DNA of 64,000 nt from Halanaerobium salsuginis. Its GTDB lineage: Bacteria > Bacillota > Halanaerobiia > Halanaerobiales > Halanaerobiaceae. The notes beneath the pieces were generated by a model that was given only the letters and a program-made list of their open reading frames with translations, was not told the DNA's origin and searched no databases. The DNA lies in NCBI RefSeq assembly GCF_900114545.1, contig NZ_FOTI01000001.1:62001-126000 (forward strand). The letters are read 5' to 3'. Every line of letters starts with the position of its first letter. The stretch's first letter is position 1. Both the position numbers and the translations under genes were made by a program. Positions 38,676 through 56,571 of the stretch are shown here, piece after piece.

Positions 38676-40379
38676 TTGGCTCCAAAAAAGCGTAAAAGAT
38701 TAGGGGAATTACTGGTTGATCATCAATATATTACTAAAAAACAGCTTACAGATGCTTTAAATGTCAGCCAAAAGAGCAGTAAAAAGTTAGGAGAGATACT
38801 GGTTGAACTTGGCTATGTTAAAGAAAGAGATTTAATTGAAGTTTTAGAGTTTCAACGGGGAATTCCCCATGCTGATTTAGATAAATATTTTTATGATCCC
38901 AGCTTATCAGATACAATTCCTGAAAATATTGCTCGCCGTTATTTAGCCTTTCCACTTGAAAAAAATGAAGATGGCCAGTTAAAAGTTGTTATGGCTGATC
39001 CGACTGATATTGTTGCAATTGATGATCTAGAAATGCTGACCAATTATCAAATTAAGCCCCTCTATGGAGCACCAACTAAGATTAGAAAAGCACTTGATAA
39101 TTTGTATGGTAGTGATAATCTGGATGTAGCTGATATTTTTGACGATTTAAAGTTAAATGAACTTGAGCTTAATGCTGATAATCAAAAAAGTGAAGCTGAG
39201 CTTCAGGAAGAAGAATTACGAGAAATGCTCGATGAAGCGCCAATTATTAAGCTTGCTAACTATATAATCAGCAATGCTTACCATAAAAAGGCCAGTGATA
39301 TTCATATAGAACCAGAAGAAAATTCAATTAGAATTCGTTATCGAATTGATGGTGTTCTGCAGACAGAAATGCGTGCACCTAAAAACTCCCACCGGGCACT
39401 AGTTTCGCGGATAAAAATAATAGCTGATCTTGATATTACAGAAAGTAGAGTACCTCAGGATGGTAGGATCAAGATGGTTTTTCAGGGAGAAAAACTTGAT
39501 CTTAGAGTATCAACTCTACCGACTATTAGGGGAGAAAAGGTCGTAATTAGACTCTTAACTCAAGATACCAATCTATTGGAATTAAACAATCTTGGTCTGT
39601 CAGCTGAAAATGAAACTAAATTTGAGAATTTAATTAAAAAAAGTAATGGAATTGTTTTATTAACTGGACCGACTGGCAGTGGTAAAACAACAACTCTTTT
39701 TGCTGCTTTAAATAAACTTAATCGAGCAGAAGTTAATTTGATTACAATTGAAGATCCAGTTGAGTATCAATTAGATGGAGTTTATCAGGTTCAGGCTCAG
39801 CCAAAAGCAGGCTTAACTTTTGCGCGGACATTACGTTCTATTCTGCGTCAGGATCCAGATATTATTATGGTAGGAGAAATGCGAGATGAAGAAACAGCCG
39901 AAATAGCTGTGCGGGCAGCCTTAACAGGTCATTTAGTTTTTAGTACTCTGCATACTAATGATGCAGTTTCTTCGCTAACTAGATTAATTGATATGGGTCT
40001 GGCTCCTTATCTAGTAGCAGCCGCGATTAATGGTGTTGTTGCTCAACGTTTATTGCGTAAATTATGTCCTCACTGTAAAGAGAAACGAGACCTATCACCA
40101 GAAGATAATTATTATTCTGGAGCTAAAGATCTTCAAGCAGCTTATTTTGCAGTTGGCTGTCCTGATTGTAATAATACTGGTTATCAGGGGCGAATTGCTA
40201 TTCAGGAAATATTTGTACTAGATAATAAGATTAAAGAAATGATTGTTAATAATCAAAGCAAAGAACAAATCGAAGCCTATGCACGCCAGCAGGGTATGTT
40301 ATCTTTAAAAGAAGATGGCTTAAAAAAAGTTGCCAGTGGAGAAACTGATCTGGCAGAATTGCAGAGAATAATTTTTTAA
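38676..40379 (+). CDS. pilB: Type IV pilus assembly ATPase PilB
   Basis: 567 residues, cytoplasmic hexameric motor for pilus extension. An N-terminal MshEN/T2SSE_N region (about 1-150, with KRLGELLVDHQYI and LGEILVELGYV) binds c-di-GMP in some homologues. The ATPase domain has Walker A GPTGSGKTTTL, ITIEDPVEYQL (Asp box), ILRQDPDIIMVGEMRD (Walker B), HTND (His box) and a tetracysteine zinc site CPHC...CPDC. TTG start after AAAGGTGG. First gene after the riboswitch. Confidence 0.95.
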   Translation: MAPKKRKRLGELLVDHQYITKKQLTDALNVSQKSSKKLGEILVELGYVKERDLIEVLEFQRGIPHADLDKYFYDPSLSDTIPENIARRYLAFPLEKNEDGQLKVVMADPTDIVAIDDLEMLTNYQIKPLYGAPTKIRKALDNLYGSDNLDVADIFDDLKLNELELNADNQKSEAELQEEELREMLDEAPIIKLANYIISNAYHKKASDIHIEPEENSIRIRYRIDGVLQTEMRAPKNSHRALVSRIKIIADLDITESRVPQDGRIKMVFQGEKLDLRVSTLPTIRGEKVVIRLLTQDTNLLELNNLGLSAENETKFENLIKKSNGIVLLTGPTGSGKTTTLFAALNKLNRAEVNLITIEDPVEYQLDGVYQVQAQPKAGLTFARTLRSILRQDPDIIMVGEMRDEETAEIAVRAALTGHLVFSTLHTNDAVSSLTRLIDMGLAPYLVAAAINGVVAQRLLRKLCPHCKEKRDLSPEDNYYSGAKDLQAAYFAVGCPDCNNTGYQGRIAIQEIFVLDNKIKEMIVNNQSKEQIEAYARQQGMLSLKEDGLKKVASGETDLAELQRIIF

Positions 40380-40405
40380 AAACTGTCAGGTTAGGAGTGA
40401 TAAAT

Positions 40406-41467
40406 TTGGATTTTGCTGAATTACTAAAAATAGTTTCAAATGATGATCAGATTTCTGATCTACATTTAACTGTATTTTCTCCTCCTTATATCCGGGTTAA
40501 TGGAGATTTACAGCCTTATCTTAAATATAAGGAGAAGTTAACACCGGAAGATACAGAACGTCTGGCCCGGGAAATGATGACTGAAAGGCAGTATAAAGAG
40601 TTTAATGAGCTGGGAGAGATTGATTTTTCTTATCGTCTGCCAGGAATTTCCCGTTTCCGGGTTAATGCCTATCATCAGCGAGGAAGTGTCGGGATTGCCC
40701 TCCGGATAATTCCGAATCAGGTGCCAACTATCGAGCAGATGGGACTGCCAGATGTTTTAAAAAGTCTTGCTATGCAAAGAATGGGGTTAATTTTAAGTAC
40801 AGGACCAACAGGTAGTGGGAAGTCAACTACACAGGCTGCAATTATTAATGAAATTAATCAGCATAAAAAATCGCATATTTTGACTTTAGAAGATCCAATT
40901 GAGTATCTGCATAAGCATAATAAAAGTCTAGTTCATCAGCGAGAAATTGGCAGTGATACCAGTAACTTTAAGCGTGGCTTACGGGCCTGCTTAAGGCAGG
41001 ATCCTGATGTTATTTTAGTAGGTGAAATGCGTGATTTAGAAACAATTAAAATAGCTCTGGAAGCAGCTGAAACAGGTCACTTAGTACTGGCAACTCTGCA
41101 TACTAATAGTGCACCAGCAACTATAGACAGGATTATTGATGCTTTTCCTGCTGGTCAGCAGGAACAGATTAAGATTCAACTTGCTTCCGTACTCAGTGCA
41201 ATTATTGCACAGCAGTTAATTTCTAAAGCTGATAATAGCGGTCGTATTGCCGCCTTTGAAATAATGATTGCAACTTCAGCAATTAGAAATATCATCCGGG
41301 AAGGTAAGACAAATCAAATTTATTCAGCAATTCAGACTGGTGGCCGTTATAATATGATTACTATGGATAGCTATCTGCTTAATCTTTATAATGCTGGCCA
41401 GGTTAGTAAAAAAGAGGTTCTTCATCATTGTAATGATGTTAAATATGTTCAGGATAAATTGCGCTAG
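40406..41467 (+). CDS. pilT: Type IV pilus retraction ATPase PilT
   Basis: About 353 residues. N-terminal PAS-like domain with SDLHLTVFSPPYIRVNGDLQ, Walker A GPTGSGKSTT, LTLEDPIEYLH, LRQDPDVILVGEMRDLETI (Walker B) and AIIAQQLI. The retraction-specific AIRNLIRE-type motif is present as AIRNIIREGKTNQI. TTG 40406 is preferred because AGGAGTG ends 6 nt before it; GTG 40397 overlaps that site. Its presence predicts retractile, twitching-competent pili. Confidence 0.95.
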   Translation: MDFAELLKIVSNDDQISDLHLTVFSPPYIRVNGDLQPYLKYKEKLTPEDTERLAREMMTERQYKEFNELGEIDFSYRLPGISRFRVNAYHQRGSVGIALRIIPNQVPTIEQMGLPDVLKSLAMQRMGLILSTGPTGSGKSTTQAAIINEINQHKKSHILTLEDPIEYLHKHNKSLVHQREIGSDTSNFKRGLRACLRQDPDVILVGEMRDLETIKIALEAAETGHLVLATLHTNSAPATIDRIIDAFPAGQQEQIKIQLASVLSAIIAQQLISKADNSGRIAAFEIMIATSAIRNIIREGKTNQIYSAIQTGGRYNMITMDSYLLNLYNAGQVSKKEVLHHCNDVKYVQDKLR

Positions 41468-41478
41468 GGAGGTGCAGT

Positions 41479-42726
41479 ATGGCAACCACTTTTTTTTATA
41501 AGGCCCGGGGCAGTGCAGGCCAAATTTTAGAAGGGATGATAGAGGCAGGTAGTAGAGAAGAAGTAGCTGGTCAGTTGCGTGATAAAAATCTTTATGCAAT
41601 TAAAATTGAAGCTCAAGATCAGGCAGCAGCTAGTGCAGCTGGAAAAACCAGTCTACTCAATTTTGATTTAGCTGAATTATCATTATTTGCTAAAGGCTAT
41701 AAAATTGCTGAATTAGCTAATTTTGCCCAGCGGCTGTCAGTCTTGATTGCAGCAGGAATTCCTCTGGTTAGATCAATTAATATTATTAAAAAACAGTCAA
41801 ATGTTAAGCATGAACAGCAGATGTTAACTGAAGTACTGACAGATATTGAAGCAGGAGCAACTCTTTCTAACACATTACAGAAATTTCCCCGTTATTTTCC
41901 CACTTTATTTGTGCAGTTGATTAAGGCAGGTGAAACTGGTGGTGTTCTCGATAGTGTATTGGCTGAGTTAGTCGAATATTATCGTAATCGAGATCGGATT
42001 AATAAAGAAGTTAAGTCAGCTCTTTATTATCCAGTTGTAATTGTAATTGTAGCAATTGCAGCAGTTTTTATCTTGATGGGCTTTGTTTTACCAAATATCT
42101 TAAATATGCTGCTCAGTTTTGGGGGTGAAATTCCACTGCCAACTAAAATTTTGATGGCAGTCAGTAATTTTATTGCTGGCTATTGGTGGCTTATTTTATT
42201 AACAGTGATTGGGGCCGGAATTTTAATCAGGAATTATTTCAAATCACCAGTTGGGAAACATTTTCGTGATCAAGTTTTGCTTAAAATACCTGTTCTAGGT
42301 GATTTAATTCGTAAAGTAGCAGTGTCACGTTTTGCCAGCACTCTATCTCTGCTGCTGCAGAGTGGGGTTAATATTGTAAATGCTTTACCAGTGGTAGAAG
42401 AGGTAGTAGGTAATGAAGTTTTTGCAGATGTTTTATTGGAAACTAGATTAAGAATTAGAGAAGGGACAACTTTATCTGAACCAATTCAGAAAAGTGGCGA
42501 ATTTCCTCCTATGGTAGTTCAGATGCTAAAAGTAGGGGAAGAAAGTGGTAATATTGAAGATATGCTTAACAAGGTTTCTGATTACTATGATTTAGAGGTT
42601 GCTAATGCAATTGAAGGTAGTATTTCTTTAATTGAACCAGCAATGATTATTATTTTAGCAGTGATTGTAGGAGGAATAGTTGCCGCAACTATTTTACCTT
42701 TATTTGCTGTTTATCAGAGTATTTAA
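41479..42726 (+). CDS. pilC: Type IV pilus inner-membrane platform protein PilC
   Basis: 415 residues with two GspF domains (about 75-200 and 280-405), each starting as a cytoplasmic helical bundle, and three membrane spans (about 180-205, 230-250, 385-408). Family marks include LSVLIAAGIPLVRSI, IKAGETGGVLDSVL and KVGEESGNIEDML. It couples the motors to pilin assembly. ATG start with GGGAGGTG. A short N-terminal FYKARGSAGQILEGMIEAGS is the usual PilC head. Confidence 0.95.
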   Translation: MATTFFYKARGSAGQILEGMIEAGSREEVAGQLRDKNLYAIKIEAQDQAAASAAGKTSLLNFDLAELSLFAKGYKIAELANFAQRLSVLIAAGIPLVRSINIIKKQSNVKHEQQMLTEVLTDIEAGATLSNTLQKFPRYFPTLFVQLIKAGETGGVLDSVLAELVEYYRNRDRINKEVKSALYYPVVIVIVAIAAVFILMGFVLPNILNMLLSFGGEIPLPTKILMAVSNFIAGYWWLILLTVIGAGILIRNYFKSPVGKHFRDQVLLKIPVLGDLIRKVAVSRFASTLSLLLQSGVNIVNALPVVEEVVGNEVFADVLLETRLRIREGTTLSEPIQKSGEFPPMVVQMLKVGEESGNIEDMLNKVSDYYDLEVANAIEGSISLIEPAMIIILAVIVGGIVAATILPLFAVYQSI

Positions 42727-43106: not shown

Positions 43107-43529
43107 ATGAAAAATATCAGAAAAGTATTTAAAAGAAATGAAGGTTTTACATTAATCGAATTATTAATTGTAATTGTTATTTTAGGTATCCTGGCAGCAA
43201 TTGCTGTACCTAACCTGGCTGGTTTAACTGACACAGCAGACAAAGCAGCTGTTCAGGCTAATATGCGGACTCTAATGACAGAGATTGAAGCTTTTAAGGC
43301 TCAGCACCCTAATTCAACTATAACAGTATCTACAACTGATGGTTTAGATATTTCATTTACTAATGCTGGTGGGGATACTTTTGATAGTAGTGCCGTCACT
43401 TCTTTGAATGATCAAAATGTGACTTTAACTACTCCGGAAAATGCTGATGCTGACTATAGTATTAAAGCGAGTATTGATAATTGGAGCGTTACAATAACTG
43501 ATAGTGGAATCACTACCAGTGGTGAATAA
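43107..43529 (+). CDS. pilA: Type IV pilin (major pilin candidate)
   Basis: 140-residue prepilin with a short basic leader (NIRKVFKRNEG) cleaved by PilD before FTLIELLIVIVILGIL. Glu5 of the mature protein is present, needed for assembly. The hydrophobic helix is followed by a small, Thr/Asp-rich globular domain. No Cys pair is visible. A strong AAGGAGG site and a dedicated structured leader suggest high expression, hence the major pilin call. Confidence 0.92.
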   Translation: MKNIRKVFKRNEGFTLIELLIVIVILGILAAIAVPNLAGLTDTADKAAVQANMRTLMTEIEAFKAQHPNSTITVSTTDGLDISFTNAGGDTFDSSAVTSLNDQNVTLTTPENADADYSIKASIDNWSVTITDSGITTSGE

Positions 43530-45346: not shown

Positions 45347-45787
45347 ATGGAGAGACAACGGTCATTTAAATTGACTGAGCAGGGGTTTACCCTGATTGAA
45401 CTTTTGATAGTAATTGTTATTTTAGGAATTTTAGCTTCAATTGCAATCCCCAATTTAAGTGGGATTACAGAAAAAGCAAGAGAAGAAGCCCTTACTTTTA
45501 ATGTAAGAACTTTACAAACAGAAATTAGTGTTTATAAATTTAAGCATGACAATTATCCTGCTGCAGCTGATACAGCAGCTTTTATTAATAATTATCAAGC
45601 TGAATTTAATGCTCTAAAAAGTATTGTAGGAGAAGTTGGTACTGCTAATTTAGCAACTGATTATTATTATGCTAGTAATGGTAGTGACTATGTTTTTTCA
45701 GTTAAGTTAACTGATGATTTGTTTATTGGGATTTCCAACCAGAGTGGTCTGGAGACTGATTTAACAGGACATCTCAGTCTAGATTAA
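45347..45787 (+). CDS. Type IV pilin, second copy
   Basis: 146 residues with leader KLTEQG and mature N-terminus FTLIELLIVIVILGILASIA, nearly identical to the first pilin over the helix but different in the globular part (YKFKHDNYPAAADTAAFINNY). The PilA/GspG-like body ends in a short beta region. ATG with GGAGG. It may be an alternative major pilin or a minor one. Confidence 0.9.
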   Translation: MERQRSFKLTEQGFTLIELLIVIVILGILASIAIPNLSGITEKAREEALTFNVRTLQTEISVYKFKHDNYPAAADTAAFINNYQAEFNALKSIVGEVGTANLATDYYYASNGSDYVFSVKLTDDLFIGISNQSGLETDLTGHLSLD

Positions 45788-45816
45788 TAAAACTAAGAAG
45801 ATTGGATGGCGATCAG

Positions 45817-46560
45817 ATGCTTATTTTTATCTTTATTTTAGGACTTTTAATCGGCAGTTTCTTAAATGTGGTAATTTATCGACTTCCCCGGGGCGAATCA
45901 ATTGTTTTTCCTGCCTCACATTGTCCAGAATGTGGCCATCAGCTGGGAGCACTAGAATTAATACCAGTAGTAAGCTATCTTTTTTTACAGGGGAAGTGTC
46001 GTGCCTGTGCTAGTAAAATAGCAGTAACTTATCCACTGATTGAGTTAACAACTGCTTTAATTTTTGTGCTTAACTATTTATATCTGGAAAATTTAACTGT
46101 GCTGTTAGCTGGTTTAATTTTTTCTTCCTTATTAATTGCTCTAACAGTGATTGATTATCAAAAACAGATTCTGCCCGATAAATTAACTCTGGGCGGCTTA
46201 ATAGTAGGACTTTTTTTAGCTTTTTTTAGAAGTGATTTAGCTATGGGACAGGCAATTTTGGGTCTTTTAGCAGGGGGAGGATTTCTATTAATTCTGGCTT
46301 ACTTAAGTAAAGGTGGTATTGGTGGTGGTGATATTAAGATGATGGCTATGGTAGGTAGTTTTGCTGGCCCTGTAATTGCCGTTACAGCAATTTTTTTAGC
46401 AGCTGTGCTGGCACTTTTATTTGCTTTACCAGGAATTTTCAAGGGTAAATTACAATTAAAAAGCAAATTACCTTTTGGACCTTTCTTAGCTGCAGCCTCA
46501 CTTTTACTCTGGTTCTGGGAAGATATCTTCTTTCATTTTTATTTGAATTTGTTTATTTAG
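45817..46560 (+). CDS. pilD: Prepilin peptidase PilD
   Basis: About 247 residues, an inner-membrane aspartyl protease and N-methylase for prepilins. N-terminal domain with LPRGESIVFPASHCPECGH and CRACAS (two CxxC pairs), then spans with VIDYQKQILPDKL and GGIGGGDIKMMAMVG, which supply the two catalytic Asp residues. ATG 45817 matches the usual family N-terminus MLIFIFILGLLIGSFLN; TTG 45802 is an alternative. Confidence 0.93.
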   Translation: MLIFIFILGLLIGSFLNVVIYRLPRGESIVFPASHCPECGHQLGALELIPVVSYLFLQGKCRACASKIAVTYPLIELTTALIFVLNYLYLENLTVLLAGLIFSSLLIALTVIDYQKQILPDKLTLGGLIVGLFLAFFRSDLAMGQAILGLLAGGGFLLILAYLSKGGIGGGDIKMMAMVGSFAGPVIAVTAIFLAAVLALLFALPGIFKGKLQLKSKLPFGPFLAAASLLLWFWEDIFFHFYLNLFI

Positions 46561-46575
46561 CCAGGGAGGTATTTA

Positions 46576-47031
46576 ATGAATATATTTAGAGAACAGGCAG
46601 GGATAACACTTATTGAAACAGTTATAACCTTGTTTTTAATAGTGCTGTTAATTACTGCTTTTGCGGCAGCCTTGATTACAGGTGTGCATACTCAGGCTCA
46701 ATCAGCTAATCGTAAACAGGCGATTAATCTGGCAGCTGATCTAGCTGAGCTGCTGCACAGTAAAAACGAATCTGGTCAGAATCTGTTAACTCAAATTATA
46801 AAAGGTGAAAATCTTAGTTATGATTCAGCTAGTTTTAATTTAACTAATGAGTTATTAAGTAACTATACAAGCGATTTTAATTTAATTGGCAATGATCAGC
46901 AAGTTCAGATTAAATACAATACTTTCGGTGATTGGCATGATTTGTTAAACCTTACTATTCAGGTTAACTGGCAGGATAGACATAGTTATCAGGAGAGCTT
47001 AAAAACTTTATTGGCAGTTGGTCTATCATGA
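46576..47031 (+). CDS. Minor pilin, PilV/GspI-like (cassette 1)
   Basis: 151 residues: prepilin leader EQAG then ITLIETVITLFLIVLLITAF, with Glu5 present. The body is short and lacks known motifs. It starts 16 bp after pilD with a GGGAGG site and overlaps the next gene by 4 nt (ATGA). With the two following genes it forms a triplet like GspI-GspJ-GspK, which primes pilus assembly and makes the tip. Confidence 0.82.
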   Translation: MNIFREQAGITLIETVITLFLIVLLITAFAAALITGVHTQAQSANRKQAINLAADLAELLHSKNESGQNLLTQIIKGENLSYDSASFNLTNELLSNYTSDFNLIGNDQQVQIKYNTFGDWHDLLNLTIQVNWQDRHSYQESLKTLLAVGLS

Positions 47032-47519
47032 TTAAATTAATAAAGCATTTTAATGGCTCAGGTTTTACTTTACTGGAGATAATTCTGACTTTAATTATTT
47101 TTTTATTAATTTCTTTGATTGTTACGCCAATTTTAATCTCAAGTTTTGATATTTTAGATAGCAGTAGTACTGAAATGAGCCAGGATCAATTATTAGCTCT
47201 TGCTCAGCAAAAATTGGCTGCTTATCTTAGAACAGCAATTGCTGATTCGACTAATCAATTTGGACAAGGGAGAAATAACTGGACGTTTTCTGGTTATAGC
47301 TCAGCTGTTGATGAAAATAAATATCGACTTAATTTAATTAATGATACTTTATATCTTCAGATTAATAGTCAGCCTCAGCAAATTATTTTGCAGAATGTAA
47401 GTGGCTTCTATATTAGACAATTGACGACTAAAAATAGATTTTTGATTTATTTAGAAACTAATGTTGAAGGTAAAACAGAACAGCAGCGAGAATTTGTAGT
47501 TTCGCGAAACTACAACTAG
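47028..47519 (+). CDS. Minor pilin, PilW/GspJ-like (cassette 1)
   Basis: 163 residues: leader HFNGSG then FTLLEIILTLIIFLLISLIV, Glu5 present, followed by a body with QDQLLALAQQKLAAYLRTAI, the helical region common in PilW/GspJ. Start codon overlaps the previous stop, so translation is coupled. Confidence 0.82.
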   Translation: MIKLIKHFNGSGFTLLEIILTLIIFLLISLIVTPILISSFDILDSSSTEMSQDQLLALAQQKLAAYLRTAIADSTNQFGQGRNNWTFSGYSSAVDENKYRLNLINDTLYLQINSQPQQIILQNVSGFYIRQLTTKNRFLIYLETNVEGKTEQQREFVVSRNYN

Positions 47520-47534
47520 AAAGGAGAGTATAGA

Positions 47535-49256
47535 ATGAATTATATTAAGAATAAACAGGGTATAGCTTTAATATTTTTATTAATAATTTTAATTGTAGTT
47601 GCTACTTTAGTTTTTGCTCTCCTCAAATCTGATTTATTTGATTTACATTTTAAAGATGAGATGATCAGTCAGCAAAAAGCTTTTTATCTGGCAGATGCTG
47701 GTGCAGAAAGACTTATTTTTTTATTTAGGAAATCAGGCAAAAAAATATTTTTAGAAGATTATGAAGATTTAACTAGTGATGATACTGATTTTATCAAGGG
47801 TAAAAAAAGACAGCTGGCTGATTATGAGGGCTTTTATCAGATTACTAATCCTGATTATTCGATCGAAGATGATCAGGTTTCAGTTGATATTTTAGGCAGT
47901 TATTCAGGTTTAGATAAAAAAATTGGCTTAACCTTTGACTTAACATCTTCTAATGAAGGCGGCCCTTTTAATAATGCTTTATTTGCTGCTTCTAGTAGTG
48001 GTGGAGGTTCGGAACCTGTTATTGCCATGTCTGGTAGTGCCAAAATAGACGGTGACATTAAGACAAATGCTACTGCCTATAATGAAGTTAGTGTAGATCC
48101 AGCTGCTCAAATAGATGGTAATTTAGACCTTGATTATAGTGAAGAAGCAGTTACAGAAGCTGATGTTAAAGTGGCTAAAAAGCCTGGTGATCAGGTCTGG
48201 TCAGCTGCGCACGGAGCCTATCGTCCTTCAGATGGAATTATCTGGTATAATGGCTTTTATTATAAGGCTAAATATTATACTACTTCAGCTCCAGATGCAG
48301 ATAGTTCCTGGTCACGTCAAATCCCGGCGGGAGACGCCTGGCCCTGGTTTAAAAATCAGACTTATAATACTGGAGATGAGGTCTGGTATAATGAGCAAAA
48401 ATATGTAGCAAAATATAATACTACCAATGATAAACCTGCAGACTCTGCTGCCTGGGAGCGAATGGTTAGAAATGTTAGTGGTTCTATTAATAATTTAGAG
48501 CATCAGGATTATCCAGATCCTGAATTTCCTGATTTCCCAGATGATTTATCTCTGCGGAGTGATTTTACAACTCCATGGACAGAATCTGGTGTTTATACTA
48601 TTGCGGAAGATGGTCAATATAATAATATTTCTGTAACTTCTGATCGAACTTTAACCATTGATTTAAACAACAGTACACGAATAATTAGAGTAAACAACCT
48701 TAATCTAAATCAGGGTCATATTGTTTTGACAAACAAAGGAGAAAATGGGCGGCTGATTTTATATGTTGGTGATGAGTTTACAATGACTGGCAGCAGTGAT
48801 ATCAATTATCTGTCAAGTAATAATTCAACAGAGCCAAATCAAATTGATGATGTAATGTTATACTATGCTGGTGATCAGGCTGTTAATCTTGGCGGATCTA
48901 CTCATTATTATGGGAATATATTTATTGAAAAAGCTGACTTAAATATTGGTGGTGGTAGTGGTGTTATGGGGAATATTATTAGTCGAGGTTCAGCAATTAA
49001 TATTTCTGGAGGAACTTCAGTTGATACTAGAATAATTTATGCTCTAGATTCTAAAGTAGATATTTCGGGTGGTGCATATGTAGAGGGAACTGTAATGGCA
49101 AATAGCTTTAATATTTCGGGAGGAACCACTTTAAAATATGAGCCCAGCAATTTAGATAGTTTTCCCTTTGCTGATCTTTTTACTCCTGAAGAAGAAGAGG
49201 AACTTAAGGGAGGTGGGACAGCTCAAGATAATTTAGTTAAATGGTATAATAATTAA
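47535..49256 (+). CDS. Large PilX/GspK-like minor pilin with two carbohydrate-binding-like modules (cassette 1)
   Basis: 573 residues. N-terminus NKQGIALIFLLIILIVVATL is pilin-like but lacks Glu5, as in GspK/PilX tip subunits; QQKAFYLADAGAERL follows. At about 221-308 two tandem modules match the CBM5/12 (chitin-binding type 3) pattern W-x-Y-x2-GD-x-V-W-Y-x2-Y-x-A: WSAAHGAYRPSDGIIWYNG and WFKNQTYNTGDEVWYNEQKY. The C-terminal part (about 400-540) is rich in ISGG/IGGG repeats, resembling a polymer-forming beta-helix as in bactofilin-like or DUF7305 proteins. It probably sits at the pilus tip and contacts a polysaccharide; that is inference. Confidence 0.8.
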   Translation: MNYIKNKQGIALIFLLIILIVVATLVFALLKSDLFDLHFKDEMISQQKAFYLADAGAERLIFLFRKSGKKIFLEDYEDLTSDDTDFIKGKKRQLADYEGFYQITNPDYSIEDDQVSVDILGSYSGLDKKIGLTFDLTSSNEGGPFNNALFAASSSGGGSEPVIAMSGSAKIDGDIKTNATAYNEVSVDPAAQIDGNLDLDYSEEAVTEADVKVAKKPGDQVWSAAHGAYRPSDGIIWYNGFYYKAKYYTTSAPDADSSWSRQIPAGDAWPWFKNQTYNTGDEVWYNEQKYVAKYNTTNDKPADSAAWERMVRNVSGSINNLEHQDYPDPEFPDFPDDLSLRSDFTTPWTESGVYTIAEDGQYNNISVTSDRTLTIDLNNSTRIIRVNNLNLNQGHIVLTNKGENGRLILYVGDEFTMTGSSDINYLSSNNSTEPNQIDDVMLYYAGDQAVNLGGSTHYYGNIFIEKADLNIGGGSGVMGNIISRGSAINISGGTSVDTRIIYALDSKVDISGGAYVEGTVMANSFNISGGTTLKYEPSNLDSFPFADLFTPEEEEELKGGGTAQDNLVKWYNN

Positions 49257-49279
49257 CCTTTTTAAGGGGGAAGAAGGTT

Positions 49280-49804
49280 ATGTTAAAAATTACTCAAAAC
49301 AGGGGTTTTACTTTGCTAGAAGTTTTGCTGGCTTTAATTATAGTTGTAGTTTTAATAACTGCTTTTACTGGTGCTATGCTGGCTGGATTTAGAAGTGAGA
49401 CTAGTGTTAATAATTCTGACTGCATAGTTAATTTTTCTGCCAGTATAATGGATTATTTATCTGATCCAGCAGTATTTAGGCTTTTAGTAAAAAAACATCT
49501 GGCAAATAAGCTAGCTGCCGGAAGTTATCAGCAAAATATTGCAGAATTTATTGATAATGATTTAAAAGAAATGGGAAGTTCTGATTTAGTCGGAGAAACT
49601 CTTGATATCAAATCTGATTTAACTGAATTATATAGTAAATATGAATTAATTGATGATTTTCAACTTACTGAGCAGTCTAAAATTAAAATTAGTGATCAGT
49701 CAGCAATTATTGCGGGTTTATATAAGGTTGAATTAGATATGAACTGGCTAAATAAAAATCAACCAGGTCAGTATAATCTGGCAACTTTTCTGGGGGTTGA
49801 TTAA
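49280..49804 (+). CDS. Minor pilin, PilV/GspI-like (cassette 2)
   Basis: 174 residues: leader ITQNRG then FTLLEVLLALIIVVVLITAF, Glu5 present. It closely parallels the first cassette's PilV-like protein in the helix (LITAF) but has a longer body. AAGGGGG site upstream. First gene of the second triplet. Confidence 0.82.
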   Translation: MLKITQNRGFTLLEVLLALIIVVVLITAFTGAMLAGFRSETSVNNSDCIVNFSASIMDYLSDPAVFRLLVKKHLANKLAAGSYQQNIAEFIDNDLKEMGSSDLVGETLDIKSDLTELYSKYELIDDFQLTEQSKIKISDQSAIIAGLYKVELDMNWLNKNQPGQYNLATFLGVD

Positions 49805-49805
49805 A

Positions 49806-50321
49806 ATGCTGAAAAATAATTCTGGTTTAACTTTACTCGAACTGTTACTTTCCATTGTTATATTTAGTGTAATAATGACAATAATTGCTTTAATTCTTTT
49901 TCAATCTTTTACTTTTTTAGATGATTCTAGTCAGCGAATAGCCAAAAATCGTCTAGATGAAGTTATGTTAGAAAATATTAGTCGATTCTTACGTAAAACA
50001 GTCCAATATGAAGAAAAAATTGAAGCAGGTGAAAATACTAAATATATTTATTATATTTATCAAAATTTAAATGAAGATGGGCAGCCAATTGATTTAGTAA
50101 AATTAACTTATGATAAAGCAGCTCAAACTTTAGAACTGCTAGAGTCAGACAAGTTAGTCCAAAAACTTAATAATGTAGCTAGTTTTAATCTCACTACTTT
50201 AATTACTGATCAAAAAAGTGACTTTAGAATTGAATTAAGTACAATTACTAATGGCATAAGAAAAGATAAGATAAAAACTGTTTATTCAAGAAATCTGGCA
50301 GTCTTAGCAGAGGAGGAATAG
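49806..50321 (+). CDS. Minor pilin, PilW/GspJ-like (cassette 2)
   Basis: About 171 residues: leader KNNSG then LTLLELLLSIVIFSVIMTII, Glu5 present, with FLDDSSQRIAKNRLDEVMLE paralleling the first cassette's FDILDSSSTEMSQDQLLAL region. ATG 49806 begins one base after the previous stop. TTG 49797 is possible but lies directly against the GGGGG site. Confidence 0.82.
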   Translation: MLKNNSGLTLLELLLSIVIFSVIMTIIALILFQSFTFLDDSSQRIAKNRLDEVMLENISRFLRKTVQYEEKIEAGENTKYIYYIYQNLNEDGQPIDLVKLTYDKAAQTLELLESDKLVQKLNNVASFNLTTLITDQKSDFRIELSTITNGIRKDKIKTVYSRNLAVLAEEE

Positions 50322-50324
50322 CCA

Positions 50325-51986
50325 ATGTTGGATAATAGAGGGTCAGCAATTATTATGTCAATTTTTCTGCTGCTTATAGTTGGTACTTTGTCCACTGCTT
50401 TTTTAATAGTTAATAATTCTAACCTCAGGTTAAGTTCTAATTCAGCAGCAGCTACTCAGGCTTTTTATGCAGCTGAAGGGGGAAGTAATTTTTTAGATCT
50501 TTATTTAAATAAGTTTTATCATGATAAAATTGCTGGGAAAAGTATTTTCTCTGCTGATGAGATTAAACCTGAACTTGATCTGATGCTAGCTGAATTAAAT
50601 CAAAAAAATTTAACTCTGGATAATTATAATTTAAGTTATAGTTATCAGCCAGATGAAAACTATCAGAAAAATAACCTTTACCTTTTTAAAGTAAATGCTA
50701 AACATGGTTTGCGTTCAAAAACAATTTCTATTCAATATAAAATAGATCATTTAATTGATTATTTTAGATTTTCTCGTTTTGCTAATAAAATAAATATTAG
50801 TAATTCATATTTTCAGGATGTTGATCGACATTCATTTGGAACAGCCGAAAAACGTTATTATAACTGGTCACCTTATAGTAATTATAGTCTGGGAGATTTA
50901 GTAGTTTATAATAATCAAGTTTATATTAGTAATTCAGACTATAATCCTGGTGAAGCTGTAGAGCCTGGGCAGCAAGATTGGCAGAAAAATTGGACACTTG
51001 ATATTAGCTATCAGCCCTGGGATAGAGAGCAAAGTTATGCTAAAGATCAAATTGTAATTAGGAATAATGATCTCTATTTGAGCTTAAGTAATAATAATCA
51101 AAGTACACCTGGGAGAAGCAGCAGCTGGCAATTAGCTCAACCAGATCTAGTAACAGAAACTAATTTAAGTAGAGACAATGTTGAATATGGATTAACTTCA
51201 TTACCAAATAAAGATGATTATGATTATCAGGAAAAAATAGTGGCTGAGTTTAAAACAAGATTGGCTAGTGAAGGCGGTTATACTTATCAAGACACAGAGC
51301 CAGATACTACTAAATATAATACCTGGAGCAATAAAGTATATAGAACAGGTAGTGAAGTTATTAATAATGGTAAAGTTTATAAAGCGATTAGAGAAAAATG
51401 GAGTTTATTTTGGAGAGTTGCCCAGCCAGAGCCAGGTGTAGGGTCAAATTGGGGCTATTATTGGCAGTTAGAAGATGCGGTTTATAATTTCTTTAATGAT
51501 GATACTGATTATGAAGCTAATTATATTTTAATCGATGGAGATTTTAATCCTACTGAATCTGAAATTAAATATTTTGATAAACCAAATGATCAAGTGTTGC
51601 ATATTTTAATTGATGGTGAAATAAAACCAGCAGCAGAAGTATCTTTGCGTGGTAGGGCTAATATAATTATTTATACTACAGCAGATCTTGTTTCTTTCGA
51701 AGCTGGTCACATTACAATGCCCTGGGAATCTGAGATTAATCTAGCCTATTTTGCTCCTTTTGCTACTTACACAAGTAATAATTTTAGAGGAGGATATGCT
51801 TCATCTATGGTTTTTAATGAAATTAATTTAAATAATGAACGGATAAGTAGTGTCACTACTTATTCTGATGATAATCCTCTGCGCGGTAGTATTGATCCTG
51901 GTATAGCAGAATTAACTAGAATCCATGGTAATCCTAATTTTGAAATTGATAAAACTGGTCCAGTTAGATTAATCTGGAATGATTAA
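50325..51986 (+). CDS. Large PilX/GspK-like minor pilin with three carbohydrate-binding-like modules (cassette 2)
   Basis: 553 residues. N-terminus DNRGSAIIMSIFLLLIVGTL lacks Glu5, as in tip subunits, followed by ATQAFYAAEGGSNFL. Three modules with the CBM5/12 pattern are visible: YNWSPYSNYSLGDLVVYNN (about 176), PWDREQSYAKDQIVIRNN (about 228) and YNTWSNKVYRTGSEVINNG (about 328), each ending near a Trp. The middle and C-terminal region is Asn/Tyr/Asp-rich. Parallel to the first cassette's large subunit but divergent and without the ISGG repeats. Strong GAGGAGG site. Confidence 0.8.
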   Translation: MLDNRGSAIIMSIFLLLIVGTLSTAFLIVNNSNLRLSSNSAAATQAFYAAEGGSNFLDLYLNKFYHDKIAGKSIFSADEIKPELDLMLAELNQKNLTLDNYNLSYSYQPDENYQKNNLYLFKVNAKHGLRSKTISIQYKIDHLIDYFRFSRFANKINISNSYFQDVDRHSFGTAEKRYYNWSPYSNYSLGDLVVYNNQVYISNSDYNPGEAVEPGQQDWQKNWTLDISYQPWDREQSYAKDQIVIRNNDLYLSLSNNNQSTPGRSSSWQLAQPDLVTETNLSRDNVEYGLTSLPNKDDYDYQEKIVAEFKTRLASEGGYTYQDTEPDTTKYNTWSNKVYRTGSEVINNGKVYKAIREKWSLFWRVAQPEPGVGSNWGYYWQLEDAVYNFFNDDTDYEANYILIDGDFNPTESEIKYFDKPNDQVLHILIDGEIKPAAEVSLRGRANIIIYTTADLVSFEAGHITMPWESEINLAYFAPFATYTSNNFRGGYASSMVFNEINLNNERISSVTTYSDDNPLRGSIDPGIAELTRIHGNPNFEIDKTGPVRLIWND

Positions 51987-52009
51987 ATTTGGTGCAAGGA
52001 GATGATAAA

Positions 52010-53107
52010 ATGGCGATAAGTCCATTTAGCTTAATTAGGGGAGTTGAATATACAGCAGTTGATTTTGGTCATAATAGTATTAAATTTTTAAATTGTCGGG
52101 TCAAAAATAATAAAATAAATTTTCAGTCTGCTCTTAAAAGAGAAATTCCTACTGGCAGTATTCAGGATGGAGAAATAAAAGATAAACATTTATTAAGAAA
52201 AATAATAACTGATATTTTTAAGACAAATAATTTTAGTTCTGGAATTCTTTTAATGACCCCCGCTGCTGGCAAAACCTTTGTCCGCAGGCTTAATTTGCCT
52301 AAAATGCCAGAAACAGAGCTTAAAGAAGCACTGAAGTGGGAAGTACAGGAAATATTAGATTTAGGGCTGGATAATATAGCATTAGATTATATTATTCTCT
52401 CAGAAAATGAAAATGAACTAGAGCTGCTATTAACAGTAATGCCTCAGGATATTCTGGCTGATTACCTTGAACTTTTTACTGAAAATTTGTTAAAAGTAAA
52501 AGTTGTTAATTTAGCAGAAATGGCAATGATTTCATTATTACGGGCAAATTATCAGCCTGAGCAGCCTGCTTTACTGCTTGATATTGGATCCAATAAATCT
52601 AAAATAATAGTGGCAGATAGCAGTAATTTTTATTTGAGTCGGGAAATTGAAATTGCTGGTAATAGTTTCAGCAAATTATTTTTGACTGAAGAAAATAGTT
52701 TTGAAGAGGCTGAAATAGCCAAAAAAACTTATCAGTTTGAAATTGATGCTGAAGAGGAGGAAGAAATAATAGATCTTGATTTATTAATGACTGGAGTAGA
52801 AGATAATAGTTCGGTTCAGACAGGAATTAAAAATTTACTGGCTAATTTAATTAATGAACTTAATCGATCAATTGATTATCATAATGAAAGAAATAAAGAG
52901 AATCTAATTAATAATATTTATTTAACTGGTGGAGGATTGCTTTTAAAAGGTCTGGTAGAATATCTACAGGCAGAAATTGATCTGCCGGTAGCTGCACTGG
53001 ATCCCTGGCTTAAATTTAATAATACTGAGTCTGCTGAAGTTAACAAAACTATGATCGCTATAGCAGCTGGCACAGTGTTAAGTGAGGTGGAATATCATGC
53101 GGGTTAA
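52010..53107 (+). CDS. pilM: Type IV pilus assembly protein PilM
   Basis: About 365 residues, an actin-like ATPase that recruits the PilN tail on the cytoplasmic side. Features: AVDFGHNSIKFLNC (phosphate-1 loop), LNLPKMPETELKEALKWEV (the PilM LP..E...A..WE segment), LLLDIGSNKSKIIV (phosphate-2) and NIYLTGGGLLLKGLVEYL (adenosine motif). ATG 52010 follows AAGGAGATG; the frame's TTG at 51989 is too far upstream. Confidence 0.92.
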   Translation: MAISPFSLIRGVEYTAVDFGHNSIKFLNCRVKNNKINFQSALKREIPTGSIQDGEIKDKHLLRKIITDIFKTNNFSSGILLMTPAAGKTFVRRLNLPKMPETELKEALKWEVQEILDLGLDNIALDYIILSENENELELLLTVMPQDILADYLELFTENLLKVKVVNLAEMAMISLLRANYQPEQPALLLDIGSNKSKIIVADSSNFYLSREIEIAGNSFSKLFLTEENSFEEAEIAKKTYQFEIDAEEEEEIIDLDLLMTGVEDNSSVQTGIKNLLANLINELNRSIDYHNERNKENLINNIYLTGGGLLLKGLVEYLQAEIDLPVAALDPWLKFNNTESAEVNKTMIAIAAGTVLSEVEYHAG

Positions 53108-53621
53108 TCTGCTGGAAAAAGATGAAAGTTACAAAATAAACTGGACAGAGATTATTTATATAATAATAATAATTGCTGTTTTGGCAATTCCAGCTGTTAA
53201 TTATTATGTAAATAGATTAGAATTAAAAACTTTGCAATCTAATAAGCTGAGCTGGCAGCAGCAGCTAACTGCTATTCAGCCTCAATTTGAGTATTATCAG
53301 AAATTAAATCAGGAAGTAAGTAATTTTAAATTACCTGTTAAAATGGAAATGGAATCCTATCAGCTGTCGCCAGCGCTGCGAGAGTTTTCAAATTTAGTAC
53401 CAGCAGCTATTTATTTTGATTCACTAAATTATCAGACAGGTAACTTAGTGATTACAGGTAATGCAACTACTGTAAGATCATTATTAGATTTTTTAGCTAA
53501 TATTTATGATTCTACTATTTTTTCAGTAGTTTCACTAGAACGTTTTCAGCAAGAGTCAGAACTTAATTTTAAGCTAACAGTTAAAATAGATACTCCTAGC
53601 AAGAAAGGAGGCATTAATTGA
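53097..53621 (+). CDS. pilN: Type IV pilus alignment protein PilN
   Basis: About 174 residues: a short cytoplasmic N-terminus MRVNLLEKDESYK (the PilM-binding NLL motif), one membrane span (about 17-36), a coiled region and a periplasmic domain. It forms the alignment complex with PilM, PilO and PilP. ATG 53097 overlaps the pilM end by 11 nt. Confidence 0.88.
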   Translation: MRVNLLEKDESYKINWTEIIYIIIIIAVLAIPAVNYYVNRLELKTLQSNKLSWQQQLTAIQPQFEYYQKLNQEVSNFKLPVKMEMESYQLSPALREFSNLVPAAIYFDSLNYQTGNLVITGNATTVRSLLDFLANIYDSTIFSVVSLERFQQESELNFKLTVKIDTPSKKGGIN

Positions 53622-54160
53622 TGAGTAAACTTTCCCGGCGTGAAATAATATTACTTTTAGTTTTATTTGTAGTAGTAGTTTTTGCAGCTTATTATTATTT
53701 TATCTATCAGCCAATGCTGACCAGGCAGGCTGATCTAAGAAATGATCTAACTAATATTCAGACTGATTTTACTGAAGTTTTAACTAAAGTAAATCAAATA
53801 GATAGTCTGGAAAAGCAGCTGGCTGATTTAAAAAAGGAAAGACAGGAACGGCTTGATTTTGAAGTGCGTCAGCCAGAAGAAGTTTTAACCGCTCTTGATT
53901 TTTTTGCTAGACAGAACCAAATTATTATCAGTCAGTACGAAAAAGCTAAGATTGCAGATGGTTATAGTTTTAAATTAAATTTAAGTGGTGATTATTTTCA
54001 ATTGTTAAACTTTTTTAGACTAATCGATAATTGGGATTATCGCCTGGTAGTAGAAAACTTTACTTTGCAAAATTATGACAGTCAATTAGAATTAGATTTA
54101 AACCTATTTTTTTATCAGCCAGATAGCCTGGTTAGATTTTCTCAGGAAATTAAGGGGTGA
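53621..54160 (+). CDS. pilO: Type IV pilus alignment protein PilO
   Basis: About 179 residues: N-terminal span (about 7-27, REIILLLVLFVVVVFAAYYY), a coiled coil (about 35-75) and a ferredoxin-like periplasmic domain with FKLNLSGDYFQLLNFFRLI. ATG overlaps the pilN stop (TGATG), with AAAGGAGG at good distance. Pairs with PilN. Confidence 0.9.
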   Translation: MSKLSRREIILLLVLFVVVVFAAYYYFIYQPMLTRQADLRNDLTNIQTDFTEVLTKVNQIDSLEKQLADLKKERQERLDFEVRQPEEVLTALDFFARQNQIIISQYEKAKIADGYSFKLNLSGDYFQLLNFFRLIDNWDYRLVVENFTLQNYDSQLELDLNLFFYQPDSLVRFSQEIKG

Positions 54161-54164
54161 GAGT

Positions 54165-54602
54165 ATGAAACATTTGAGTATGGTTATTTTAACTATCTGT
54201 TTAGTTCTTTTAGCACCAAAAGTAATGGCATTAAACCTTGCAGTGGATCAGGATTTAATGGATTTTACTTTACAAAATGAATTAGATGAGAATGAAATTA
54301 GTGATTTAAATAATCCTTTTCTTAATCAGCTGCAACCGCTTGTAGAAGATGAGCAGCAGGTAGATCAGCTATTAGTTGAGCAGAATAATAATTTTAACCC
54401 TGAAGCAGCTGCAGAGGAACTCGAAGTTAAAGGGATCCTGGTAACTGGAGGAGAAAAAATTATTTTAATTAAGGATTTAATTAATAATACAAGTGAATTA
54501 CTTAGACCAGGTGAAATGATTGCTGGTTATACTTTATTGTCTTATAGAGATAGCCAGGTTTTTCTTACTAAAAATGGAAATGAATTTACAATTAACTATT
54601 AA
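54165..54602 (+). CDS. pilP: PilP-like periplasmic protein
   Basis: 145 residues: signal peptide (about 1-22), an acidic linker with DLNNPFLNQL, and a C-terminal domain with LEVKGILVTGGEKIILI and LLRPGEMIAGYTLLSYRD, matching the PilP/GspC HR-like fold that contacts the secretin. No lipobox Cys is evident. Called from fold pattern and its place between pilO and pilQ. Confidence 0.8.
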   Translation: MKHLSMVILTICLVLLAPKVMALNLAVDQDLMDFTLQNELDENEISDLNNPFLNQLQPLVEDEQQVDQLLVEQNNNFNPEAAAEELEVKGILVTGGEKIILIKDLINNTSELLRPGEMIAGYTLLSYRDSQVFLTKNGNEFTINY

Positions 54603-54633: not shown

Positions 54634-56571
54634 ATGTTTTTAAAAAAGAAAACTTTATTATTAGTTTTATTTTTACTTTGTATTTTTTCACTAACTGTAC
54701 TTGCCGGGCCAGCTCAGCAAATTGACCAGCTGGAATTTAAAAATGCTGATTTAGCAGATGTGCTGCGCACTGTAGCAACCGCAGCAGATGTTAACTTAAT
54801 TACTGACAGCTCAGTCGATGGGAAAATTACTGTTACTTTAAAGGGAATTAGCTTTGCCAAGGCTCTAGACTTAATTACTCAAACTAAAGGTCTGGCCTAT
54901 AAATGGGATGATAATACAGTTGTAGTGGCAGCTCCCGAAAAAATCAACAGTATTTATGCTAATATTACTACAGAATTTGTTAAAGCTAATCAGAATGAGT
55001 TGGAGAATATCGGAACAATTATTAGACAGCTTTTTCCAGAAACTCAAATTACTCTAGATCCAGTGCGCGGCCAGTTTATTCTAAAAGGAGAGGCTGAACA
55101 GTTAAATGAAATTAAAACTATGATAGCTGAGCTGAGTTCAGAGACACCTGTAAGCCAGCCTCAAACTGAGTCAAAGCAGCTTAATGAATCAAACATAGAA
55201 TTATATTCAGCTAATTATCAAGTTTTAAATGCAGAATTGGAAGACTTACAGAGTAAATTATTAGTTGTCAATCCTGCTCTGCAAATTAAAATTAATCCTT
55301 TGACTAACCAGATTACAATTAGTGGTAGACAGCCAGAAGTTAATACTGCTTTAGCAATGGCTAAAACTTATGATGAGAGTCTGGAGCCGACAACAGAAAA
55401 TATTAGGGTGGATTATGTTGATACAGAGCAGATTAATGAAATCTTAACTGCTTTTTATCCTGAAATAAAAGTTCATGTTAATCAAAAAAGAAAAGAAGTA
55501 ATTATTAATGGTCCTCGTAATCAGCTAGCTAATGTTGAATCATTAATTAAGAGTATTAATAAGCCAAGGTATCAGGTTGTTATAGAAACAAGGGTTGAAG
55601 AAATATCAACAGATTTTTCACGCGAGATTGGAATGGATTATGCAAGTGATGGCGGCATTGGTACCATCAATATTGAACGTAACTCTGATGGTGATAAAAT
55701 TAATAAGTTGTCTTATACCTGGGCAGAAATATTTAAGCTGCTTGATAATTCTTCTGATGCCAAAACACTGGCTAAACCAAGTTTAATGACTTTAAACGGA
55801 GAAGAAGCCAATATGGAAATCTTAAATAAAGAGCCCTATGAGGTTACAGAAGATGATGATGAAGGAGATACCACTACTTCCTGGGAATATGCAGAGGCCG
55901 GAGTTAAGCTTAAATTTACCCCCTGGATTACTGAAAACAATGAGATTGAAATGAAAATTGCACCTGAAGTAAGTAACTTTACTGAAAATAATGCAGAAAC
56001 TGCTAGTTCTGATAAAACACCACCTCCAGCAACCCAGACTAGAAAAGTTGAAACATCACTGCGCCTAAAAAATAATGAGACATTTGCGATTAGTGGTTTA
56101 ATCCAGACAGATAAAGAAGGTGGTATAGCCAAAATACCATTCTTTGGTGATATACCATTATTAGGTAAACTATTTACTCACCAGACAAAAGGTAATAAAA
56201 CAAATGAGATCATTATTTTTGTGACTCCCAAAATAATTAAATATGGAGATGAAGTTAGTTCGAAGAATGTTATCAAGAGCAGTAATTTTAACCTTGAACT
56301 TGGTAATAGCTCAAATAGCTCAGAACCAAAGGCACAGGTAGAACAGGAAGTACAGCTAGATAATCCCTCTCAACCTAAAACAGCCGCCACTGAAACAGTT
56401 GAGTCTGTTGAACCACCAGCTCCACCAGTTAAAGAAGATATTATAGCTGATTATCTGGCTGAAAAGGCACAGAGTAGAGAAGAAATCCTGGCTCAATTGA
56501 GTCAAAATAAAGCAAAACAGCAATATCAGGATTTAACAGCTGCTGAATTAGAAGCTATTTTAAATAAATAA
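54634..56571 (+). CDS. pilQ: Type IV pilus secretin PilQ
   Basis: 645 residues: signal peptide (about 1-24), STN/N0 domain (FKNADLADVLRTVATAADVN), two or three N-domains with IRQLFPETQITLDPVRGQFI and YVDTEQINEILTAFYPEI, then the secretin beta-barrel domain (about 310-550) with VVIETRVEEIS, AKPSLMTLNGEEANM and PFFGDIPLLGKLFTH. The tail (about 555-645) is Pro/Glu/Ser-rich with a final amphipathic helix. A secretin makes sense only with an outer membrane. ATG with GGAGG. Confidence 0.93.
   Translation: MFLKKKTLLLVLFLLCIFSLTVLAGPAQQIDQLEFKNADLADVLRTVATAADVNLITDSSVDGKITVTLKGISFAKALDLITQTKGLAYKWDDNTVVVAAPEKINSIYANITTEFVKANQNELENIGTIIRQLFPETQITLDPVRGQFILKGEAEQLNEIKTMIAELSSETPVSQPQTESKQLNESNIELYSANYQVLNAELEDLQSKLLVVNPALQIKINPLTNQITISGRQPEVNTALAMAKTYDESLEPTTENIRVDYVDTEQINEILTAFYPEIKVHVNQKRKEVIINGPRNQLANVESLIKSINKPRYQVVIETRVEEISTDFSREIGMDYASDGGIGTINIERNSDGDKINKLSYTWAEIFKLLDNSSDAKTLAKPSLMTLNGEEANMEILNKEPYEVTEDDDEGDTTTSWEYAEAGVKLKFTPWITENNEIEMKIAPEVSNFTENNAETASSDKTPPPATQTRKVETSLRLKNNETFAISGLIQTDKEGGIAKIPFFGDIPLLGKLFTHQTKGNKTNEIIIFVTPKIIKYGDEVSSKNVIKSSNFNLELGNSSNSSEPKAQVEQEVQLDNPSQPKTAATETVESVEPPAPPVKEDIIADYLAEKAQSREEILAQLSQNKAKQQYQDLTAAELEAILNK

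Follow-up and report, generated by a model that had tools for sequence, protein, structure and literature searches.

We report that two large pilins, P0001 and P0002, encoded on the plus strand inside a complete type IVa pilus (T4aP) gene cluster of Halanaerobium salsuginis, carry five modules of approximately 45 residues that are homologous to the carbohydrate-binding modules (CBMs) of families 5 and 12 (CBM5/12), two in P0001 and three in P0002. The window, i.e. the whole stretch of 64,000 nucleotides that was analysed (assembly GCF_900114545.1, contig NZ_FOTI01000001.1, positions 62,001 to 126,000), covers this cluster, and the features are listed with their coordinates in Table 1. A first-pass annotation, made from the nucleotide sequence without database searches, had placed five CBM5/12-like copies grafted into pilus tip proteins at 48190-51480, and the modules identified here in the two large pilins span 48192-51473.

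To avoid circularity the modules were searched for with a hidden Markov model (HMM) trained on 15 modules from organisms other than Halanaerobium and run against the six-frame translated window. Exactly five modules stood out, with 36.0, 20.6, 18.7, 16.8 and 12.9 bits, compared with 5.3 bits for the next-best open reading frame (ORF) of the window and 9.6 bits for the top of 20 shuffles; the lowest-scoring match is module 3 of P0002, which is degenerate and has an insertion. The Pfam search for PF02839 that the first-pass annotation had proposed gave a divided answer: P0002 matches over three stretches with 34.5 bits, above the curated cut-off of 26.2, while P0001 reaches 16.6 bits, below it (PF14600 likewise remains below its cut-off in P0001, with 15.7 bits).

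Moreover, a profile built from the modules of the window and its relatives matches the domain with which Streptomyces griseus ChiC binds chitin (2d49, E 6e-8). Its further matches are CBMs of other chitinases and of deacetylases, endoglucanase Z, two tail proteins of Agrobacterium phages and a baseplate protein of a cyanobacterial contractile injection system. The P0001 module pair was modelled with AlphaFold2 at a mean predicted local distance difference test score (pLDDT) of 69, module 2 being the best modelled (83-88) and module 1 less sure (42-69). In Foldseek the module-pair model lies within 1.1-1.8 Å of the CBM5 of ChiC, CBM5/12 domains fill most of the top rows of its structure matches, and a second comparison of module 2 with the ChiC CBM gave Z 8.0 and 1.4 Å over 46 residues. 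In the model of full-length P0002 (pLDDT 52 overall) modules 1 and 2 score 74-84 and give the same CBM5/12 matches; outside the modules the model is too poor to interpret. The core Tyr and Trp of the CBM5/12 fold are kept in all five modules. Profile and fold thus bear out both the suggested homology and the check on predicted structure that had been set for it. According to both the profile and Foldseek the fold also occurs in phage tail fibres, spikes and baseplate parts and in the injection-system baseplate, and the label CBM5/12 need not mean chitin.

Both carriers have a prepilin-type N-terminus with a Gly before the hydrophobic helix (...NKQG/IALIF... in P0001 and ...DNRG/SAIIM... in P0002), in the P0002 model followed by a long helix, and together with the non-pilin modules this makes them modular type IV pilins, as had been proposed; the N_methyl profile has no match in P0001 or P0002. 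The body of P0001 is a DUF7305/bactofilin-like beta-solenoid according to its profile matches, and its homologue in the relative G012 (E 5e-20) matches the N-terminus and the solenoid and is free of modules, the two P0001 modules falling between the two matched blocks. A PHROGs search gave a weak match to one unknown family. Glu5 is absent from P0001 and P0002 and present in the four neighbouring I- and J-type pilins, and both stand last in an I-J-K gene order, which are the features of K-type pilins. Pilus tip complexes are known to be capped by a subunit lacking Glu5 (PMC10191384). Because of the missing Glu5 and the K position, P0001 and P0002 probably cap a pilus tip, which supports the tip placement suggested at first. 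The segment encoding the P0001 modules (48192-48464) has a GC content of 0.44 and a third-codon-position GC content (GC3) of 0.34 compared with 0.18 in its flanks, within the top 1.3% of cluster stretches; since Trp codons raise GC3, this is only suggestive of a foreign origin.

With respect to binding, CBM5 contacts the sugar through two consecutive aromatic residues, Y-W or W-W, while the hydrophobic core holds a Tyr and a closing Trp, Y265 and W299 in CjCBM5 (PMC8449059). The W...GD...W signature from which the modules had been recognized therefore reports the fold and not the binding strip, since its invariant Tyr and closing Trp are core residues, and three of the five modules lack the GD. 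The exposed aromatic residues, on which the proposal had also been staked, are partly there: YY occupies the pair position in P0001 module 1 and YN in module 2, and in P0002 module 1 a single Tyr at or beside the pair (Y206) is invariant across four orthologues. P0002 module 2 has no aromatic residue at the pair (SN here, VN or IN in the orthologues), and module 3, because of its insertion, has no confident alignment at this position. In the same alignment the chitinases have WW and the pilins of other lineages many WW, WY and YY with some losses. The consecutive pair is a trait of the chitin-binding members and not of the fold family, and as judged from these residues the canonical chitin-binding site appears to be mostly lost from modules that are members of the fold. 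Between P0002 orthologues no other part of the protein is as poorly conserved as module 2 (27-31% identity) and module 3 (31-40%, with gaps); the carrier has 45-66%, and module 1 (54-57%) is on par with it. P0001 is the likelier binder of the two since its sugar-stacking residues are better preserved, and P0002 modules 2 and 3 are diverging, perhaps towards a changed ligand or a role as spacers.

P0002 orthologues with modules are present in H. congolense, H. saccharolyticum and Halanaerobium sp. MA284_MarDTE_T2; these three came from an alignment query, and a single-sequence scan of genome contigs with P0002 gave none. A partial P0001 relative with modules, having a WW pair, was found in G011. 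In the family survey modules were detected in 5 of 14 genomes, every one of them within these pilin ORFs, and the large pilins of seven relatives (G002, G003, G004, G005, G008, G009 and G012) are free of them. Module-free relatives retain the pilus cluster, and pilus assembly hence does not need the modules. A plasmid search was negative.

Outside this family, PF02839 was found in 22 of 398 genomes sampled across the phylum, four of which (G000, G087, G167 and G225) have a pilin carrier, and in 6 of 73 genomes in the order of G167, where the carrier is pilin-like in all six. Among the latter, the carriers in G450 and G454 are N_methyl pilins, and those in G167, G410, G415 and G417 have PilX-like N-termini (RGSALLT...AYYLAEAGIQYG or similar), a label given by sequence inspection because they score below Pfam PilX_N. 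That the types of carrier pilin differ suggests several separate grafting events. A secreted non-pilin protein of G221 (L040:1486-2469) has three CBM5/12 modules and the same 'DEWRxxNVY' linker as pilins of other lineages, and this common linker suggests that the tandem block moves between carriers. Several CBM5/12 pilins also have a Big_2 Ig-like domain (L076:400-1629; L043:910-2433; L078:613-2181) and are longer, multi-domain pilins.

The pilus machinery and a prepilin peptidase are encoded next to the modular pilins (Table 1), and the PilT-like gene supports the view that the pilus is retractile. A PilY1 profile search was silent in the genome, and so were its controls. The I-J-K minor-pilin cassette is doubled at 46576-51986. 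G002 shares this arrangement and G003 apparently does too, and a single cassette is seen in G001, G005, G007, G008 and G009; the doubling may provide a pilus with two alternative tips. Between the two major-type pilins lies a gene for a Wzy_C/O-antigen-ligase-like membrane protein (43622-45316), a candidate pilin glycosyl (oligosaccharyl) ligase, with ORFs of similar size at this position in several relatives and none in others. A link between the modules and this gene was considered and dropped, there being no correlation across genomes. The pilus cluster of G008 contains an oppositely oriented ORF of 479 aa (L023:3865-5304), possibly a transposase, immediately ahead of the minor-pilin cassette.

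Table 1. Pilus genes and CBM5/12-like modules of the window (iE, independent E-value in the search with the non-Halanaerobium HMM; pair, residues at the CBM5 sugar-contact position).
Feature	Coordinates	Strand	Remarks
PilB extension ATPase	38676..40379	+	T2SSE 467 bits, MshEN 69.8 bits
PilT-like retraction ATPase	40397..41467	+	T2SSE 167 bits; PilT label inferred from length and position
PilC-type platform protein	41479..42726	+	T2SSF
Major-type pilin	43107..43529	+	N_methyl 37.8 bits
Second major-type (GspG-like) pilin	45347..45787	+	N_methyl 34.8 bits
Prepilin peptidase PilD	45802..46560	+	A24_N_bact, Peptidase_A24
I-type (PilV-like) minor pilin, cassette 1	46576..47031	+	TIGR02523 pilV E 2e-5, sub-threshold; Glu5
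J-type minor pilin, cassette 1	47028..47519	+	NF041002 ComGF E 6.9e-8, sub-threshold; Glu5
P0001, K-type (GspK/PilX-like) modular pilin, 573 aa, two CBM5/12-like modules	47535..49256	+	PF23981 DUF7305 E 2.3e-9; Bactofilin E 8.5e-5
CBM5/12-like module 1 of P0001	48192..48320 (aa 220-262)	+	iE 1.4e-5; pair Y-Y
CBM5/12-like module 2 of P0001	48336..48464 (aa 268-310)	+	iE 2.2e-10; pair Y-N; AlphaFold2 pLDDT 83-88
I-type minor pilin, cassette 2	49280..49804	+	N_methyl over cut-off; Glu5
J-type minor pilin, cassette 2	49797..50321	+	N_methyl over cut-off; GspJ E 2.3e-4, sub-threshold; Glu5
P0002, K-type modular pilin, 553 aa, three CBM5/12-like modules	50325..51986	+	PF02839 34.5 bits; PilX_N 23.4 bits (cut-off 25.5)
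CBM5/12-like module 1 of P0002	50856..50990 (aa 178-222)	+	iE 2.1e-4; one Tyr (Y206) at or beside pair
CBM5/12-like module 2 of P0002	51009..51137 (aa 229-271)	+	iE 5.4e-5; pair without aromatic; fast-evolving
Degenerate CBM5/12-like module 3 of P0002	51315..51473 (aa 331-383)	+	iE 3.4e-3; carries insertion
PilM, PilN, PilO-like and small PilP-position gene	51989..54602	+	PilM_2, PilN, T2SSM; PilP-position gene without Pfam match
Secretin PilQ	54634..56571	+	Secretin 159.7 bits

We favour, with moderate confidence, the explanation that P0001 and P0002 are K-type modular pilin adhesins at the tip of the type IVa pilus, gripping polysaccharide and coupling this grip to retraction. Homology, fold, gene context, conserved architecture and recurrence in other lineages are established; the adhesin model is built on these, i.e. 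the CBM5/12 match, the complete T4aP cluster, the conserved architecture and the recurrence, together with the K-type features and the precedents given below, and its tip location, glycan binding and coupling to retraction are the parts that we infer. Specifically, P0001 and P0002 would each belong to their own I-J-K minor-pilin cassette and would each cap a tip complex. The modules, inserted behind the pilin head (three, P0002) and into the beta-solenoid body (two, P0001), would be displayed at the tip, where they most likely would grip a polysaccharide, possibly that of a biofilm matrix, in a multivalent manner and weakly per module. Retraction by the PilT motor would then pull the cell along or hold it to the matrix. 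Several observations weigh against this model: the aromatic pair is whole in only one of the five window modules (P0001 module 1) and absent from P0002 module 2 in all four orthologues, related Halanaerobium keep the pilus cluster yet have no modules, the full-length P0002 model is too poor to place the modules with respect to the filament, and the curated K-type scores are not reached (PilX_N 23.4 compared with 25.5, GspK 13 compared with 130). Because of these missed cut-offs P0001 and P0002 are named K-type-like and are not filed as GspK or PilX.

That aromatic-rich sequences resemble CBM5/12 by chance has a negligible probability: P0001 on its own falls under the Pfam cut-off, but the non-circular HMM with its shuffles, the profile match to ChiC and the fold match together rule it out. 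As to the ligand, the first-pass annotation had pointed to chitin, and this part of it is not specifically supported. A pilus that helps the cell to feed by grabbing chitin from brine shrimp or fungi would agree with chitinase CBMs being the top profile and fold matches, with the YY pair in P0001 module 1 and with the WW pair of the partial relative in G011. However, no GH18 or GH20, i.e. the chitin-degrading enzymes expected with a chitin-utilisation adhesin, was found in the genome in a profile search with positive controls (a GH19 search gave no match, its control being silent as well), GH18 exceeds its cut-off within the family only in G012, which itself has no modules, the aromatic pair is gone from most window modules, and the fold is shared with phage tail and injection baseplate proteins. 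Feeding on chitin is consequently without support and we regard this alternative as quite improbable; chitin is unlikely as a selected nutrient ligand and only possible as an attachment surface.

Chitin is no likelier a ligand than a matrix polysaccharide. The modules could bind extracellular polysaccharide of the cell itself or its neighbours, or a pilus glycan, and so anchor the tip in the biofilm matrix for aggregation and twitching; we hold this tentatively, at less than even probability, and consider it the most likely sub-case of the modular-pilin adhesin explanation. It is consistent with the absence of detected GH18 and GH20, with the Wzy_C/O-antigen-ligase-like gene within the pilus cluster, and with Myxococcus, where T4aP recognize polysaccharide through a Trp on the PilA surface, for which chitosan is another ligand, and thereby drive social motility (PMC12691611). 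Against it, the ligase-position ORF is missing in module-bearing G007 and present in module-free relatives, and a pilus glycan as ligand is therefore without correlative support. It is also conceivable, albeit unlikely, that the modules bind no sugar and serve as structural spacers or decoys, the CBM5/12 fold being no more than a small stable unit. This would fit P0002 keeping the fold core and mostly losing the binding pair, the low conservation of its modules 2 and 3 relative to the carrier, and the same fold in phage tail, phage baseplate and injection-system baseplate parts; that other lineages have repeatedly joined modules with intact aromatic pairs to their pilins, and that Tyr206 of P0002 module 1 is invariant, speaks for a binding role instead. 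Beyond Halanaerobium, our data raise the possibility, which we judge less likely than not, of a widespread and so far undescribed class of CBM5/12 tip adhesins, in which several lineages independently armed tip pilins with tandem polysaccharide-gripping modules and coupled the pull on sugar to retraction, the Halanaerobium modules drifting towards a new, non-chitin ligand.

Compared with known systems, the modules resemble the CBM5 of ChiC (2d49, 1wvu) and other chitinase CBM5 and CBM12 domains in profile, in fold (1.1-2.0 Å over 43-48 residues) and in the core Tyr and Trp; here, however, the carrier is a pilin and not an enzyme, and the WW pair has become YY or YN or is lost. CBM5/12-like domains of phage tails, which are among the top Foldseek matches (Milano gp124, 8fqc, and 7-7-1, 9rkv), likewise are copies of the same fold in the part by which a surface machine attaches, but these are phage proteins and chitin binding is not established for them. 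Pilins of the GspK/ComZ type have an extra inserted domain, which in ComZ is a beta-solenoid and so appears similar to the body of P0001, but no CBM5/12 modules were found reported for them in the main text of the modular-pilin survey (PMC8179133).

According to that main text modular pilins are widespread and binding domains have been cut and pasted onto pilins, and P0001 and P0002, like S. sanguinis PilB and other pilins of the survey, have a general-purpose binding domain grafted on a pilin (PMC8179133). None of the architectures found named there includes CBM5/12, Dataset S1 aside. Since the survey, as its main text describes it, required the N-terminal motif IPR012902 (PMC8179133), and P0001 and P0002 have no N_methyl match, K-type pilins like these were probably missed and left uncounted. 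We found no report of CBM5/12 on pilins, K-type included, in the titles, abstracts and passages covered by a literature search that was largely without subscription papers and without Dataset S1. A close relative in design is PilC of Streptococcus sanguinis, a lectin pilin at the pilus tip for which sialylated glycans and glycosaminoglycans have been shown as ligands (PMC9934059); it too has a glycan-binding-type module on a large pilin with a prepilin N-terminus within a tip minor-pilin complex. PilC differs in that its ConA-like lectin and Ig-like module are C-terminal and its ligands are experimental (PMC9934059), whereas the modules of P0001 and P0002, known from sequence, lie between the head and the C-terminal domain or inside the solenoid. 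In Myxococcus one Trp of PilA grips exopolysaccharide and chitosan by stacking (PMC12691611). CBM5/12 affinity hangs on a few aromatic residues, so the role of the tip glycan grip in pilus function can be tested by point mutations. Modular pilins, carbohydrate-binding ones included, are thus already known; new here is CBM5/12 on pilins, on different carriers and in unrelated lineages, by which a well-understood and tractable polysaccharide-binding module joins the list of domains grafted on pilus tips, here on K-type pilins.

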